Origin: a virus
Reading direction: 5' to 3' (one strand)
Virus record (IMG/VR): IMGVR_UViG_3300043468_000282
Location: 1 to 25,785 of that record
Length of the DNA: 25,785 nucleotides
Under the pieces are notes generated by a model. That model ran no database searches. It had not been told where the DNA came from and saw only the letters and a list, made by a program, of their open reading frames with translations. Of the stretch, positions 2,736 through 22,907 are shown in pieces (within the stretch, counting starts at the first letter, position 1; every line of letters starts with the position of its first letter). Made by a program: the position numbers and the translations under genes.

Positions 2736-2758
2736 TTGTCAGTGGCACCCGCTATAAT
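2736..2758 (+). promoter_or_regulatory. RecA-NDp/PafBC-like promoter, leaderless
   Basis: TTGTCAGTG (2736-2744), exactly 8 bases, then TATAAT (2753-2758): a perfect match to TTGTCRGTG-N8-TANNNT. The start codon ATG 2765 follows after only 6 bases, so the mRNA should start at or next to the AUG. Confidence 0.8.
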
Positions 2759-2764
2759 ACTCGC

Positions 2765-3427
2765 ATGACCAATGAACTAGTATCAAGTAAGTACACATTT
2801 GCCTGCGACCCAGATGAATGTGATTGTCTAATTGAACTAACATCATCAGACGGATTTGGATTCCCGTCTGGGGTGATGGAAATCACATGTCCATGTGGCC
2901 GTAAGCCAACATTATTGTCAGTGGAGCATGCTACAATTCAACCAACAGAAACGGAAGGAAATAAAATGGAAGAATCAACAGTAACAATTTCACCAATCCC
3001 TGATACATATAATCCTAATCTATTGGTAACCTATAAAGTTATCCGTGGATATTCAGATGCAGAATATGCAACTGATAAGGTTACATCAATTGAATGGGAC
3101 CTACACAATGCACGTCAGGCACAGAAGACTAATGGAGTTCTTCAAGGTAAGATTGATGCGGTCAAGGAAATTATCTGCGAGGCATATGCAGACTCACAAG
3201 ACCAAGACACTCTACGTGATATTGCTGAAGCGCTTGGCATTGAACTTATTAAGGAAGTTCAGTTCACTGCATCTGTAGAAGTAAGCGGAACATATTCATA
3301 TGATATTCTTTCTGATTACTCTGACTACGACCTTGATTCAGTAATTACAGATGCTCTATTTGCAGATTCAAATGACGGTAACGTTCAAGTTGACGACACC
3401 GAAGTTTGCAATGTGAGGGAAGCATAA
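2765..3427 (+). CDS. Hypothetical protein with N-terminal Cys cluster (long form)
   Basis: A 220-residue protein. A TTG at 2729 is rejected because it lies upstream of the -10. ATG 2765 sits 6 bases behind that -10, giving leaderless translation. Residues 1-60 hold CDPDECDC and CPCGR, a likely zinc-binding unit. Residues 68 onward are acidic and mostly helical or beta, ending in a strongly acidic, Tyr/Asp-rich stretch. The frame contains a second promoter (2915-2937), ribosome site and ATG at 2966. Two proteins are therefore likely: a short Cys-rich protein joined to the downstream one, and the downstream one alone. I do not know its function. Confidence 0.75.
   Translation: MTNELVSSKYTFACDPDECDCLIELTSSDGFGFPSGVMEITCPCGRKPTLLSVEHATIQPTETEGNKMEESTVTISPIPDTYNPNLLVTYKVIRGYSDAEYATDKVTSIEWDLHNARQAQKTNGVLQGKIDAVKEIICEAYADSQDQDTLRDIAEALGIELIKEVQFTASVEVSGTYSYDILSDYSDYDLDSVITDALFADSNDGNVQVDDTEVCNVREA
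2915..2937 (+). promoter_or_regulatory. RecA-NDp/PafBC-like promoter inside a coding frame
   Basis: TTGTCAGTG (2915-2923), 8 bases, then TACAAT (2932-2937). It lies inside the frame that starts at 2765, where it encodes LLSVEHATI. A full ribosome site (ACGGAAGGAAATAAA) and ATG 2966 follow. Confidence 0.7.
2966..3427 (+). CDS. Internal in-frame gene (short form)
   Basis: A 153-residue protein in the same frame as the 220-residue protein, starting at ATG 2966 directly behind the arm's standard leader (GGAAGGAAATAAA) and an internal promoter. It has no Cys until the last residues. The central part (about 30-95) looks helical; the C-terminal part alternates Ser, Tyr, Asp and Val. It is more likely to be the main product than the readthrough form, since it has both promoter and ribosome site. 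Its stop overlaps the next start (TAATG). Function is unknown. Confidence 0.7.
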   Translation: MEESTVTISPIPDTYNPNLLVTYKVIRGYSDAEYATDKVTSIEWDLHNARQAQKTNGVLQGKIDAVKEIICEAYADSQDQDTLRDIAEALGIELIKEVQFTASVEVSGTYSYDILSDYSDYDLDSVITDALFADSNDGNVQVDDTEVCNVREA

Positions 3428-4697: not shown

Positions 4698-4720
4698 ATG
4701 TCAGTGGTCCATTATATAAT
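4698..4720 (+). promoter_or_regulatory. RecA-NDp/PafBC-like promoter
   Basis: ATGTCAGTG (4698-4706), 8 bases, TATAAT (4715-4720). The gene starts at 4746 after GCGAAAGGAAATAAA. An ATG inside this element (4698) is in frame but lies upstream of the transcript start. Confidence 0.75.
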
Positions 4721-4745: not shown

Positions 4746-5519
4746 ATGCCAAATTGGTGTTATAACACGTTAACTATTCAAGGACCTAAGTCTGAGGTAG
4801 ATATGATTAAAGATAGATTGAATAAGCCTTTTACATTAGCACAAGAGACATATGGTATGGGTGATATTAATGCTCATGGGTTCCCCACCAAAATTAAAGA
4901 GGTTACTTATAGTAATCCTGTTTTTGCATTCTTTAATATTCACTCATATAAGGATGAGGGTATTACTGATGAGGAATATGCCTGCCAGCCTGACCGTAGC
5001 AACTTAGATATGAATGACCCTGATTGGTTCCGCAAGTCTGTTGAGTTTGCTAAAACTCAGAAAGATTGGTATTCATGGAATAACTCTAACTGGGGAACTA
5101 AATGGGATGTTGCTGTATCAGATGATGAGAAGTATCCTGAGACAGAACTAATTGAATATAAATCAGAGGGTGATGACAACTGGCTTGTATATAAATATGA
5201 GACTGCATGGTCACCTGCTGTAACTATCTTAACTAAACTAAGTAATCTTGTTCCTAACTGCCTGCTCACATTAGAGTTTGAGGAAGAAACAGGTTGGGGT
5301 GGGGAATATGAGATTGTTCGTGGTGAAGTTAAAGAAATTCTAGATTATGAGACACGTTGCTATGCTTGCCAATCTTATGATTGTGTTGAGTATTGCGATA
5401 ATGATTGTGGTCAATTCTGCTCTGAATGCAATGAGGGCTCATGGCGTGATGAAGAGGCTATGAAAGAATGTCAGACCCACATGGTATTATTGGATACTAC
5501 AGAAAAGGCGGAGGTATAA
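4746..5519 (+). CDS. YubB/Api92-like ferredoxin-fold protein with C-terminal Cys cluster
   Basis: A 257-residue protein starting at ATG 4746. The N-terminus PNWCYNTLTIQG is the signature of the YubB/Api92 ferredoxin-like fold found on phages and plasmids, and WGTKWDV near residue 120 and WSPAVTI near 160 also fit that family. About residues 205-240 hold eight Cys in close pairs (CYAC, CVEYC, CGQFCSEC), an addition that looks like a two-site zinc module. Function of the family is unproven. The last 50 bp contain the promoter for the next gene, whose start overlaps the stop by one base. Confidence 0.75.
   Translation: MPNWCYNTLTIQGPKSEVDMIKDRLNKPFTLAQETYGMGDINAHGFPTKIKEVTYSNPVFAFFNIHSYKDEGITDEEYACQPDRSNLDMNDPDWFRKSVEFAKTQKDWYSWNNSNWGTKWDVAVSDDEKYPETELIEYKSEGDDNWLVYKYETAWSPAVTILTKLSNLVPNCLLTLEFEEETGWGGEYEIVRGEVKEILDYETRCYACQSYDCVEYCDNDCGQFCSECNEGSWRDEEAMKECQTHMVLLDTTEKAEV
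5468..5490 (+). promoter_or_regulatory. RecA-NDp/PafBC-like promoter inside a coding end
   Basis: ATGTCAGAC (5468-5476), 8 bases, TATTAT (5485-5490), inside the 3' end of the upstream gene. It would drive the group starting at 5519. Confidence 0.5.
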
Positions 5520-5737: not shown

Positions 5738-5913
5738 GTTATACAGAATCCGATCTAAACAGGATGATTAATGCTGTACATGACGCAAAGCTTTTTTATC
5801 TTAGGTACCCGTCCGATTTAATGGATAAGACAGAACTAAGGAATGATTTAGAAATGGCTGTTAGTTTTATGCAAGGCCTATGGGCGGAGGGTTACTTTGA
5901 CCACACAAACTAA
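5731..5913 (+). CDS. Small helical hypothetical protein
   Basis: A 60-residue protein, ATG 5731 behind AAGGAGATGAGG, overlapping the previous stop. The pattern suggests two amphipathic helices (about 5-25 and 32-52). No Cys or membrane segment. I do not recognise it. Its stop overlaps the next start. Confidence 0.75.
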   Translation: MLGYTESDLNRMINAVHDAKLFYLRYPSDLMDKTELRNDLEMAVSFMQGLWAEGYFDHTN

Positions 5914-6100
5914 ATCTAGTAAATTCATAGAGTATATGAAGATACATCTAATTAGTCTTAACCAGGACTTAGAGGGTGATTACAATGTTCAATCTAAGAT
6001 TAATATCCAGGGACAAATTATGGCAACCGAGCATTTATTGTCAGTGGCGACTGATATAATGAACAACTCTAACGAAAGGTATAACAATGACAATATCTGA
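5897..6100 (+). CDS. Small hypothetical protein with promoter in its 3' end
   Basis: A 67-residue protein. TTG 5897 is chosen because GCGGAGGG lies at correct spacing, while the ATG at 5936 has no good site. It is helical and mildly basic. Codons about 47-56 (LLSVATDIMN) are also the promoter at 6038-6060, the same arrangement as in the gene at 2765. The last 14 bases overlap the next gene. Function is unknown. Confidence 0.65.
   Translation: MTTQTKSSKFIEYMKIHLISLNQDLEGDYNVQSKINIQGQIMATEHLLSVATDIMNNSNERYNNDNI
6038..6060 (+). promoter_or_regulatory. RecA-NDp/PafBC-like promoter inside a coding frame
   Basis: TTGTCAGTG (6038-6046), 8 bases, TATAAT (6055-6060): a perfect match. ATG 6087 follows after AACGAAAGG. 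Confidence 0.75.
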
Positions 6101-17287: not shown

Positions 17288-17591
17288 TAGGCTTACCCTC
17301 CAGCTCGCATCTTACTCCGTATGACTCAAGCAGGCGCTTGATCTTTCCTACATAATCAATAACCATTTCTTTTTTGGTTCCTTCAAATTGTAAAAAATTG
17401 TCTTCATACAGTCTTAACGCTAAAAACTCTGGGTACATTACTATGTCCATAAGAAGCATTGGTGGCTTCTTTACTTGATGAACTGCTTTTCTCATCTCTT
17501 CAGTATAGAAAACGGGCTTGTTTGGCTCGCCAGTCCATTCATTTATTCCATACTTAAAATGCTCGTTAATATCTTTTTTATTAATAAACAT
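17271..17591 (-). CDS. Hypothetical protein
   Basis: A 106-residue soluble protein. ATG 17591 overlaps the WhiB stop by 11 bases. It is mixed alpha/beta (NKPVFYTEEMRKAVHQV, MLLMDIVMYPEFLALRLYED) with a basic C-terminus (KIKRLLESYGVRCELEGK). No recognised motif. It is translationally linked with WhiB. Confidence 0.65.
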   Translation of the reverse strand: MFINKKDINEHFKYGINEWTGEPNKPVFYTEEMRKAVHQVKKPPMLLMDIVMYPEFLALRLYEDNFLQFEGTKKEMVIDYVGKIKRLLESYGVRCELEGKPSERIL

Positions 17592-17892
17592 TTTTTTTCT
17601 TTAACCTCTTCCAGTCTTCTGGTGTTTTATGCAAATTTTTTGACTTATCTATTGAACCTGAGCTTAAATATACTCCGCCCCATACTCCATATTCATTATT
17701 ATCTACTCCAGATTCATAACACATTTTCATTACTGGACAACTGAAACACATCTCGTCTATATTTCTTGCTACATTAGCATCAGACTCATATTTTTCATAA
17801 AATAGATTTGTATCCATTCCTCTGCATATTGCAAGGTGGAACCAATCTAAATCGTCTTCATCTATGCCTAAATCATTTAAAATGTTTGACAT
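17581..17892 (-). CDS. whiB: WhiB-family iron-sulfur regulator
   Basis: A 103-residue protein with Cys23, Cys49, Cys52 and Cys58, the C-x25-C-x2-C-x5-C iron-sulfur ligand set of the WhiB family, and GVWGG at residues 69-73. A basic C-terminus (KRLKKKNVY) would contact DNA. WhiB proteins bind the principal sigma factor region 4 and modulate transcription in actinobacteria; phage TM4 WhiB interferes with host septation and blocks superinfection. ATG 17892 is preferred to the TTG at 17928, which overlaps the upstream gene by 56 bp. It overlaps that gene by 20 bp. Confidence 0.85.
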   Translation of the reverse strand: MSNILNDLGIDEDDLDWFHLAICRGMDTNLFYEKYESDANVARNIDEMCFSCPVMKMCYESGVDNNEYGVWGGVYLSSGSIDKSKNLHKTPEDWKRLKKKNVY

Positions 17893-18100
17893 GCTTTGTG
17901 GGCAACTTCCATATTCCGTCACTGTCAACAGAAATTCTTTCTGCTGTCCCCCATGTGTTCTCTTTGAACATGCCCTTTACATTTGTAAATCCATTAATAT
18001 CTTTTTTCCAAATTACTAGATCGTAATTGTCCCAAAATGGAGTGATACTCTTAGCCTTTTTAATAAAGACTTCTACACCCAGTTCTGTTAGATTTAACAT
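17873..18100 (-). CDS. Hypothetical protein
   Basis: A 75-residue protein starting at ATG 18100 behind TTTAGGAAATA. It has a Trp-rich, mixed charge composition (FWDNYDLVIWKKDING) and a small beta-type pattern, ending in a basic tail (KHVKHFK). It lies upstream of WhiB in the same transcript and may be co-regulated. Function is unknown. Confidence 0.65.
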   Translation of the reverse strand: MLNLTELGVEVFIKKAKSITPFWDNYDLVIWKKDINGFTNVKGMFKENTWGTAERISVDSDGIWKLPTKHVKHFK

Positions 18101-20211: not shown

Positions 20212-20394
20212 TTATTCTGAGTCTCTATTTCTAATAGGGCTAGTGACTACCCATAAAGCAGTTGTAGCTACTATTCCATAGCCTACTACTGTTTTGGCAC
20301 TTCCGTCAAGGACTACCCATGCTATAAACATGCCAAGAAGGGTCCATGCCTGATCTATCATGTCTTTAATGATATTCTTTATTACTCTTACCAT
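20212..20394 (-). CDS. Small membrane protein next to the lysis genes
   Basis: A 60-residue protein with two hydrophobic stretches (residues 17-30, WTLLGMFIAWVVL, and 36-52, VVGYGIVATTALWVV). ATG 20394 overlaps the upstream stop by 7 bases. It may be a second holin, an antiholin or a membrane partner of the large exported protein. Charged ends support a hairpin topology. Confidence 0.7.
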   Translation of the reverse strand: MVRVIKNIIKDMIDQAWTLLGMFIAWVVLDGSAKTVVGYGIVATTALWVVTSPIRNRDSE

Positions 20395-22907
20395 TTTCTA
20401 CCTCCCCTTGAACCTGGTGAATTAGCCCCTGATGAGCTTCCCCCAGAACTTCCTCCTCCGCCAGTACCCCCACCAGTTGCACCTCCAGCAGCAACTGCTG
20501 CTGCATTAATTGCTGCTCCTGCTGCCACTACGGTTGCTACAACCATTTCGGTAGCCTCTTCTCTTTCTTCTGCTGACATATCTGCACCTATATTACCTAA
20601 AGCCTCTAATGCTGCCCCTGGATCAGATAAAGCTGTTGATAATAGCTCTGAAGGATTTTCAAGCAATACTAAGGATGCGGCTACCTCTGCAGTTATAACA
20701 ACTTCATTTCCGTTCTCATCTTGACGAACTTCAACAGGTGTGTCTGCAGGTAAATCTTTATATTCAATTCCAGCTTCTTGTATTTGCTCTTTAGTTAAAG
20801 ATTCTCCAGGAGCAATAGATTCGACAAGTGCATCTGCTATTAATTCTTTTTCTGAATCAGTTAATTTTCCATCCTCAGATAAAGTTTCTGCAAGATCTTG
20901 AACTTCTTCTGCAGTTACTTCACCGTCACTTGCAAGTTCATTTAAAATGTCTTCTGCTTCTGATTCATCTATTTTACCATCAGACAATGCTTCGTCAACA
21001 GATTCTTCTACTGCTTCTTCTGATCCCGCTTCTGGCTCTTCCACAACTTCTTCTTCTGTGATTGGCTCTTCTGCAGGTGGTTCTTCTGCAGGTGGTTCTT
21101 CTGCAGGTGGCTCTTCTGCAGGTGGCTCTTCTGCAGGTGGTTCTTCTGCAGGTGGCTCTTCTGCAGGTGGCTCTTCTGCAGGTGGCTCTTCTGCAGGTGG
21201 TTCTTCTGCAGGTGGTTCAACAACTGGTGGCTCAACAACTGGTGGCTCAACAACTGGTGGCTCAACAACTGGTGGCTCAACAACTGGTGGCTCAACAACT
21301 GGTGGCTCAGGCGCTGGTGCAGGCGCTGGTGCAGGAACTGCATCAATTACTGTTTGTGCTGCTGCTACTATTGTAGGTGCGGTAGTTACTTTTTCTACGG
21401 CTGTAGAAACAATTGCAAGGTCTGCTACTTTTTCAGTTAATGTTGTGCTTGCTGATTCTAATGCAGTTACAGTATTTTGTGAAACAGTTGCAATAGGTGC
21501 AATAACTGTATTTATGTTTGCTGTATTTGTTGCAACAACTGTTGTAATTGCTGAGTTTAATGTAGCAATTTGTGCGTTTGCTGTATTAATTGCTGCCAAT
21601 ACTGTTGCATTATCTGGATCAGGTGTAGGAGTAAAGGCTGGTCCTTGACTTATTGTCCCATTAAATCCAGGACCTGAATTAGTATCAATAATAGGTGTTA
21701 TTGCTCCGCCTGCTGTTTCTCTTATATTAAATCTAGCACCGTTTGGTATTGGTCCAGTAACATTAACATCTGCCTGCCATGCTCCGTTAGATGGATTAAC
21801 GTCTGCGTTAAATCTAACTTGAGTCATTTGTGTCTCGGCGGTAGTTAAAGGATAAACTCTAAGATCCCAAGCAACACTCAGTGTATTAGTAGTTGTTGAG
21901 TATGTGATTCCAGACCCATTACTCCATGTAGTCCAGTCCCAGCCTGCTATAGATATAGAAGGAGCATTAGGTGTAGTGTGATATGTTCCACCTTCATTTA
22001 CCCCAAAAGTAATTGTTGCATTAGAGCCTACAAAAACATTGTTATATGTTACTCCACCCATCTGTAAATTAAAGGGAAGGTTCATTCGAACGCCAGCGTC
22101 ATCGACATTAGATAAAACATTTGTAGTTGTGCCGATAGTTGCTGCAAGGGCGTTGACTGCGTCTTGAGCGTTATTAATTGCTACGTTTGCTTGAGTTAAT
22201 TGTGTTTGAGCCTCTGTCCGTGCAGGAGCTACCGCCGCTACTGCCGTGGTTGCTGCCGCTATTGCAGTGTTTGCCTCTTGTACTTGAGTATTTGCATTTT
22301 GTATAGCGGTAGATGCTGTTTGTGCTTGTGCCGCCTCTGTCGCAACTGCTGTTGCTACCTCTGCAACTGTAGTAAGAGGTGTTGTTGACAAAGTGTTGGA
22401 TGCTGATAAAACTGTTTCTGTTGCGGCTGTTACTACTGTAGTTGCTGATTCAACTGCTGTTTGAGCAGCTGCTACCTCTGTATTTGATGTTGTTGCATTT
22501 ACAGGAATTGCCTCAACTGCTGTTGTTACTGCCGTTACCGCCGATGTTACATTGCTAACCACTGTTGTTGCTTCTGACACAACCGTCGATGTATTTGCAA
22601 CTTCTGCAACTGCTGCTACGGCTGCAGCTACCGCTGTGTTTGCTTGAGCAACTTCTGTATTAGATGTTGTCACTGCCTGTACCGCTGTTGCTGTTGTAGA
22701 AGTGGCTGTCTCTGATGCTGCCACTGCTTGTGCTACTTCTGTAGTTGCGGTAGCAAGAGCTGTGTTAACTGCTTGTTGTGCGGGGCTTACTACAACCTGC
22801 TCTGAAGGCGCTGGAGGCTCATTAGCATTGGCAAAATTAGGACTAAAAAGGAAAAGCCAGCCAATTACAAAAAGGCTGGTTAAAAAGTACTTTAACTTTC
22901 TAGTCAA
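20388..22907 (-). CDS. Large exported repeat protein
   Basis: An 839-residue protein using TTG 22907 behind TTAGGAGATACCTAG. Residues 1-28 form a signal peptide (ending FANA). Residues 30-280 are an Ala/Val/Thr coiled-coil-like region. About 290-430 is a beta-sandwich-type domain with NGAR and PFNLQ segments. Residues 535-614 are 16 five-residue repeats (six PPVVE, ten PPAEE). After that comes an acidic helical stretch with repeating DGK/DGE loops (about 640-720), then a domain around VRQDENGNEVVITAEVAAS, and a Gly/Ser tail. It may be a surface or virion-exposed stalk. I recall similar C-terminal domains in phages of low-GC aquatic actinobacteria. Confidence 0.75.
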   Translation of the reverse strand: MTRKLKYFLTSLFVIGWLFLFSPNFANANEPPAPSEQVVVSPAQQAVNTALATATTEVAQAVAASETATSTTATAVQAVTTSNTEVAQANTAVAAAVAAVAEVANTSTVVSEATTVVSNVTSAVTAVTTAVEAIPVNATTSNTEVAAAQTAVESATTVVTAATETVLSASNTLSTTPLTTVAEVATAVATEAAQAQTASTAIQNANTQVQEANTAIAAATTAVAAVAPARTEAQTQLTQANVAINNAQDAVNALAATIGTTTNVLSNVDDAGVRMNLPFNLQMGGVTYNNVFVGSNATITFGVNEGGTYHTTPNAPSISIAGWDWTTWSNGSGITYSTTTNTLSVAWDLRVYPLTTAETQMTQVRFNADVNPSNGAWQADVNVTGPIPNGARFNIRETAGGAITPIIDTNSGPGFNGTISQGPAFTPTPDPDNATVLAAINTANAQIATLNSAITTVVATNTANINTVIAPIATVSQNTVTALESASTTLTEKVADLAIVSTAVEKVTTAPTIVAAAQTVIDAVPAPAPAPAPEPPVVEPPVVEPPVVEPPVVEPPVVEPPVVEPPAEEPPAEEPPAEEPPAEEPPAEEPPAEEPPAEEPPAEEPPAEEPPAEEPITEEEVVEEPEAGSEEAVEESVDEALSDGKIDESEAEDILNELASDGEVTAEEVQDLAETLSEDGKLTDSEKELIADALVESIAPGESLTKEQIQEAGIEYKDLPADTPVEVRQDENGNEVVITAEVAASLVLLENPSELLSTALSDPGAALEALGNIGADMSAEEREEATEMVVATVVAAGAAINAAAVAAGGATGGGTGGGGSSGGSSSGANSPGSRGGRKW
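21066..21215 (-). repeat. 15-bp tandem repeat, 10 units (PPAEE)
   Basis: Ten consecutive 15-bp units encode PPAEE on the minus strand. Units differ mainly at one third-codon base. The near-identity suggests recent expansion. Confidence 0.9.
21216..21305 (-). repeat. 15-bp tandem repeat, 6 units (PPVVE)
   Basis: Six 15-bp units encode PPVVE. The first two residues are conserved with the PPAEE block, so both probably derive from one ancestor by duplication and local homogenisation. Confidence 0.9.

Follow-up and report, generated by a model that had tools for sequence, protein, structure and literature searches.

The 25,785-nucleotide stretch of viral DNA analysed here (the window; positions 1 to 25,785 of IMG/VR record IMGVR_UViG_3300043468_000282) contains an open reading frame into which a second promoter, a ribosome-binding site and a second start codon are written without interrupting it. 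Does such a frame encode one protein or two, and what would switch it on? We favour, with a probability of about two in three, a two-product gene yielding a Cys-rich fusion protein and a shorter form, and belonging to an early cluster placed on host promoters of the PafBC type that respond to single-stranded DNA and DNA damage.

Organization of the long frame

From ATG 2765 to the stop at 3427 the frame is open over 220 codons, and ATG 2966 is in phase with ATG 2765, with no stop between them (Table 1). The full sequence of the outer promoter P1 (2736-2758) is TTGTCAGTGGCACCCGCTATAAT and that of the inner promoter P2 (2915-2937) is TTGTCAGTGGAGCATGCTACAAT, which reads L-S-V-E-H-A-T-I in frame; a leader of 28 nt carrying the GGAAGGA sequence separates the second -10 box (2932-2937) from ATG 2966. 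The pattern TGTCAGTG-N8-TANAAT has four matches in the window (at 2737, 2916, 4699 and 6039, all on the + strand) against 0 expected from dinucleotide shuffles of the window, which rules out a chance origin of the motif. With a slightly looser pattern, eight related contigs of 109-117 kb contain 6-8 copies each, on one strand and within ~10 kb.

Table 1. Coordinates of the long frame, its parts and the promoters of the same class in the window
Feature	Position	Strand	Remarks
Outer promoter P1, TTGTCAGTG-N8-TATAAT	2736..2758	+	exact motif; -10 box 2753-2758, 6 nt to ATG 2765
Fusion (long) frame, 220 aa	2765..3427	+	start predicted leaderless; full-length relatives, 83/83 fused
Cys-rich N part	2765..2914	+	alignment A1; dN/dS ~0.07
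Inner promoter P2, TTGTCAGTG-N8-TACAAT	2915..2937	+	exact motif; codons 51-57 nearly without synonymous change
Putative short-form leader, also coding for the interdomain linker	2938..2965	+	SD GGAAGGA 2953-2959; 67/67 junctions with SD
C part / putative short form, 153 aa, inner ATG	2966..3427	+	Met invariant in A1
Third promoter of the same class	4698..4720	+	first base differs; before gene starting 4746 (MPNW...); served as control
Fourth promoter of the same class	6038..6060	+	in 3' end of ORF 5897-6100 (..LLSVATDIM..); control

The N part has four Cys residues (14, 19, 42 and 44) that are invariant in alignment A1, which suggests that it is a candidate Zn-binding module. The 220-aa protein had no match in a Pfam search, and the C part gave only a weak match against PHROGs (PHROG 37219, of unknown function, E 3e-4). 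In a predicted structure that is weak overall (pTM 0.31) the C part shows a long helix and the linker residues 58-75 have a pLDDT < 50, so that the linker of the long form is predicted to be disordered; a fold search with this weak model gave no match.

Conservation of the fusion in related phages

Many relatives were collected from IMG/VR with four queries, namely the complete frame, its N and C parts and an N part of a second type; a search of annotated phage records for relatives returned none. The relatives with the fused frame are uncultured freshwater phages of about 110-117 kb. In all of their 83 distinct complete frames the N part runs into the C part without a stop, which bears out the claim of the preliminary description that promoter, leader and ATG 2966 all lie within an uninterrupted frame of 220 residues. 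That description had also entertained a recent frameshift or stop loss, in which case homologues would have a stop between the two parts; this explanation is ruled out, as none of the 83 has one. Its proposal of a leaderless upstream start behind a promoter of the same class is compatible with these data: the motif is exact in the window, and in every one of 67 distinct upstream regions of the relatives 6 or 7 nt separate the outer promoter from the ATG, the spacing that a leaderless P1 message would have.

The SD sequence and the ATG are present in 67/67 distinct junctions. Among the 61 having the inner promoter, the distance between its -10 box and the ATG is 25, 28, 31, 34, 37, 40 or 43 nt and remains in phase (1 mod 3) in every one of them. 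The other two frames at the junction hold stops in 19/67 and 13/67 cases. According to a quick tree, the length of the junction has changed at least 30 times and the type of the N part 16 times, although both counts are inflated by tree error and recombination. There are at least four types of upstream part (YTFxCDP.., YTWVCTGDCDALIEY.., YWYVCTSCDASIEI.. and YTHVCHTCD..) and at least three of downstream part (..LVTYK.., DNHYxTREFLES.. and TPQVMTLDW..; the C1 and C2 parts align weakly over 30 columns, with a probability of 34%), and every combination is in frame. The residue preceding the inner Met varies (K, Q, P, T, E or N). One N-part type (L162, L173 and L212) lacks P2 and retains both the start signal and the frame.

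The C part occurs by itself in a single remote clade (L226-L229, ~37% identity), where another gene precedes it and a stop is present; in its member L226 the only start is the equivalent of ATG 2966, which supports the latter as a real start. Conversely, no stand-alone N part was found among the relatives, so that the suggestion that the first part might act as a separate regulatory peptide is not supported. The MPNW gene of L226 has a similar promoter (2191-2212), the first bases of which supply an in-frame ATG (MSVDSATI..); just before position 2998 of the same record, a TGTCAGACCC-type promoter lies inside the MPNW gene and is followed by the C part.

The two other exact or near-exact promoters of the window served as controls. 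In relatives of the gene at 4746, the -10 box is 27 nt from the ATG in 24 cases, 28 in three and 25 in one, and in-frame stops are common between promoter and ATG. Promoter 6038 lies, as P2 does, within a conserved gene (..SVATDIM..), but in all 50 relatives this gene terminates near or just past the ATG that follows, and the downstream gene (6087) uses a different frame. Neither promoter is accompanied by a forced in-phase open frame, which makes this property specific to the 2765-3427 gene and rules out that every promoter-SD-ATG cassette in these phages is in frame.

Selection on two codes

Synonymous diversity, calculated from 59 distinct N parts and relative to the expectation from codon usage, falls to 5% in the promoter codons 51-57, compared with 61% in codons 8-50. 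No other window of seven codons has so low a value, nor did any of 100,000 randomly drawn sets of seven codons reach it. The N part also has a dN/dS of ~0.07 and, judging from these sequences, is evolving under selection as a protein. Evidence of selection on both codes, together with the identity of the promoter class, is what the present analysis adds to the preliminary description. Synonymous diversity is also low in codons 1-7 (2765-2785, in the window and homologues; ratio ~0.2), perhaps reflecting a constraint on leaderless translation starts.

Promoter class and probable host

DNA-damage promoters dependent on RecA-NDp/PafBC occur in mycobacteria and other actinobacteria (Gamulin 2004; PMC5656591, PMC6789036, PMC11804915). 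They are LexA-independent, with the consensus tTGTCRgtg - 8 nt - TAnnnT (PMC5656591); PafBC works via the RecA-NDp motif (PMC6789036), through sigma adaptation at a -26 motif, and its activator is single-stranded DNA (PMC11804915). This consensus is matched exactly at 2736, 2915 and 6038, whereas at 4698 the first base differs, so that the phage promoters match the RecA-NDp/PafBC class in sequence and spacing. Ten phage records encode neither a WYL protein nor a sigma70 region 2; in these records a phage-encoded WYL regulator or sigma factor is thus discarded as the reader of the promoters, which makes the host system the likelier one.

That host is probably an actinobacterium of the small-genome kind, given a WhiB-like transcription factor gene in the window (17581-17928, - strand, PF02467) and a tRNA-Asp that is closest to those of small actinobacterial genomes, at only 84%; no exact tRNA match to a host genome was found. 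The window also encodes a long protein with tandem PPVVE/PPAEE repeats (20388-22907, - strand). A motif search of 34 small actinobacterial genomes gave 37 matches, compared with 9 for a reversed control, and the motif is repeatedly present upstream of recA in several genomes of 1.3-1.6 Mb, from actinobacteria that carry PafC (L250, L258, L260-L262, L265, L266 and L269, the recA of L269 being identified by Pfam PF00154); from their size and G+C content we infer that the small genomes with the motif belong to Nanopelagicales. It is also found before a radA-like gene (L246), DUF3263 genes (L248 and L249) and cytosine methylases (L264 and L273), often at 6-8 nt from the start, and many of the genes with the motif are apparently leaderless. 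A genome scan with an 18-base form of the motif gave four scattered matches, about the chance level, one of them actinobacterial. PF19187 (HTH_PafC) is above the cut-off in 383 of 395 genomes of the actinobacterial class, a figure that describes the class and not the phage's own host. The -10 boxes of the phage copies (TATAAT/TACAAT) are stronger than those of most host-type copies, so it is possible that the phage promoters are partly independent of PafBC.

Two probable products from one frame

The fusion form and shorter form envisaged in the preliminary description remain the best reading, because the two starts and the two promoters are all conserved and the frame has stayed fused through many in-phase changes of length. 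Transcription from P1 would yield an mRNA without a leader, on which translation begins at the very first base and gives the 220-aa protein made of the Cys-rich domain, a flexible linker and the C domain. P2 is embedded where the last residues of the Cys-rich domain are encoded; its mRNA would be shorter, would have a leader and an SD sequence and would give the C domain of 153 aa, the leader of the short form doubling as the linker of the long one. Ribosomes starting at 2765 would have to read through the C part, so that the N part could only be made as a fusion. Activated PafBC of the host, in the presence of single-stranded DNA, would turn on both forms along with the other 4-6 promoters of the early cluster; that both are made, and that PafBC drives both, we infer from the sequences. 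The long and short forms could then work together, for instance in mixed oligomers with the Cys-rich domain on some subunits only, comparable to those of T7 gp4A/4B or endolysin CTP1L (PMC4777826), which is the likeliest mechanism that we can offer and nonetheless a doubtful one. With a probability that is likewise short of even odds, a damage signal raised by phage replication and acting via the PafBC promoter in the coding frame might set the ratio of Cys-rich fusion to short form. In some lineages P2 has been lost and the gene persists; there the short form may need no promoter of its own, or it may not be essential.

If P2 and the inner start served the downstream operon only, the fused long product would be a tolerated by-product devoid of function. 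The existence of the C part alone in the remote clade L226-L229, the status of SD and ATG as the best-conserved piece of the junction and the occurrence of other promoters in the tails of upstream genes in these phages all agree with this idea. It is, however, improbable: the N part has for itself a conserved promoter predicted to give a leaderless message (67/67) and a low dN/dS, and phase has survived 30 or more changes of length, all 83 frames being free of stops, whereas at comparable junctions the upstream frame is terminated in 50/50 cases. The opposite simplification, with the long fusion as the sole product and the inner motif and ATG as remnants of a gene fusion, could account for the lineages that lack P2 and keep the frame (L162, L173 and L212). 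We consider it very improbable, since a remnant would decay and the motif shows hardly any change at its synonymous sites; besides, SD and ATG persist in 67/67 junctions despite the variable residue before the Met.

A further alternative concerns the regulator only and is compatible with two products: the motif might have nothing to do with PafBC or DNA damage and be a plain sigma-A early promoter that carries an upstream element. In the phage copies the -10 boxes are indeed near-perfect and most host copies are weaker, but the fit to the RecA-NDp consensus is exact in both sequence and spacing, P2 lacks a canonical -35 at the expected spacing in the window, and host-type actinobacteria have the motif repeatedly in front of recA and in one case in front of a radA-like gene, all of which makes this alternative rather unlikely.

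Comparison with known systems

Phage genes with two products from a single frame and PafBC promoters in actinobacteria were both known already. The T7 gene for gp4A/4B gives two products from one frame, the short form being devoid of the Zn-binding domain. In T7, as in the endolysins CTP1L and LysIME-EF1 and in gp1/gp11 of filamentous phages, the secondary in-frame start is, as far as is known, an internal translation start on one mRNA, whereas the frame of our phage also encodes a second promoter. Like the phage gene, the endolysins (CTP1L, PMC4777826; LysIME-EF1, PMC7098653) and gp1/gp11 (PMC5408679) combine a full-length and an N-terminally truncated product in one frame; no link of the phage protein to the CTP1L, LysIME-EF1, gp1/gp11 or T7 gp4A/4B families was found. 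A report on plasmid pIGRK describes two in-frame Rep proteins from one gene and also mentions an internal promoter (PMC6854812), although these are plasmid replication proteins.

Rv1955 of M. tuberculosis likewise has a RecA-NDp motif inside the annotated frame and its true start downstream (PMC2897130), but there the upstream part is an annotation error, whereas that of the phage is conserved at the protein level and preceded by a promoter of its own. With cellular RecA-NDp/PafBC promoters in general, the phage shares the arrangement tTGTCRgtg-8 nt-TAnnnT, a motif that precedes recA in host-type genomes; it differs from them in carrying 6-8 copies, one of them inside a coding frame, and in having a stronger -10 box. 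A literature search found no report of phage use of RecA-NDp/PafBC promoters, and copies of a host DNA-damage promoter in a phage early region, with one inside a conserved protein and both codes under selection, appear to be undescribed. If true, early expression in phages of very common freshwater bacteria would be tied to the single-stranded-DNA sensor of the host, and this gene would offer a clean test case at two levels, protein and promoter.
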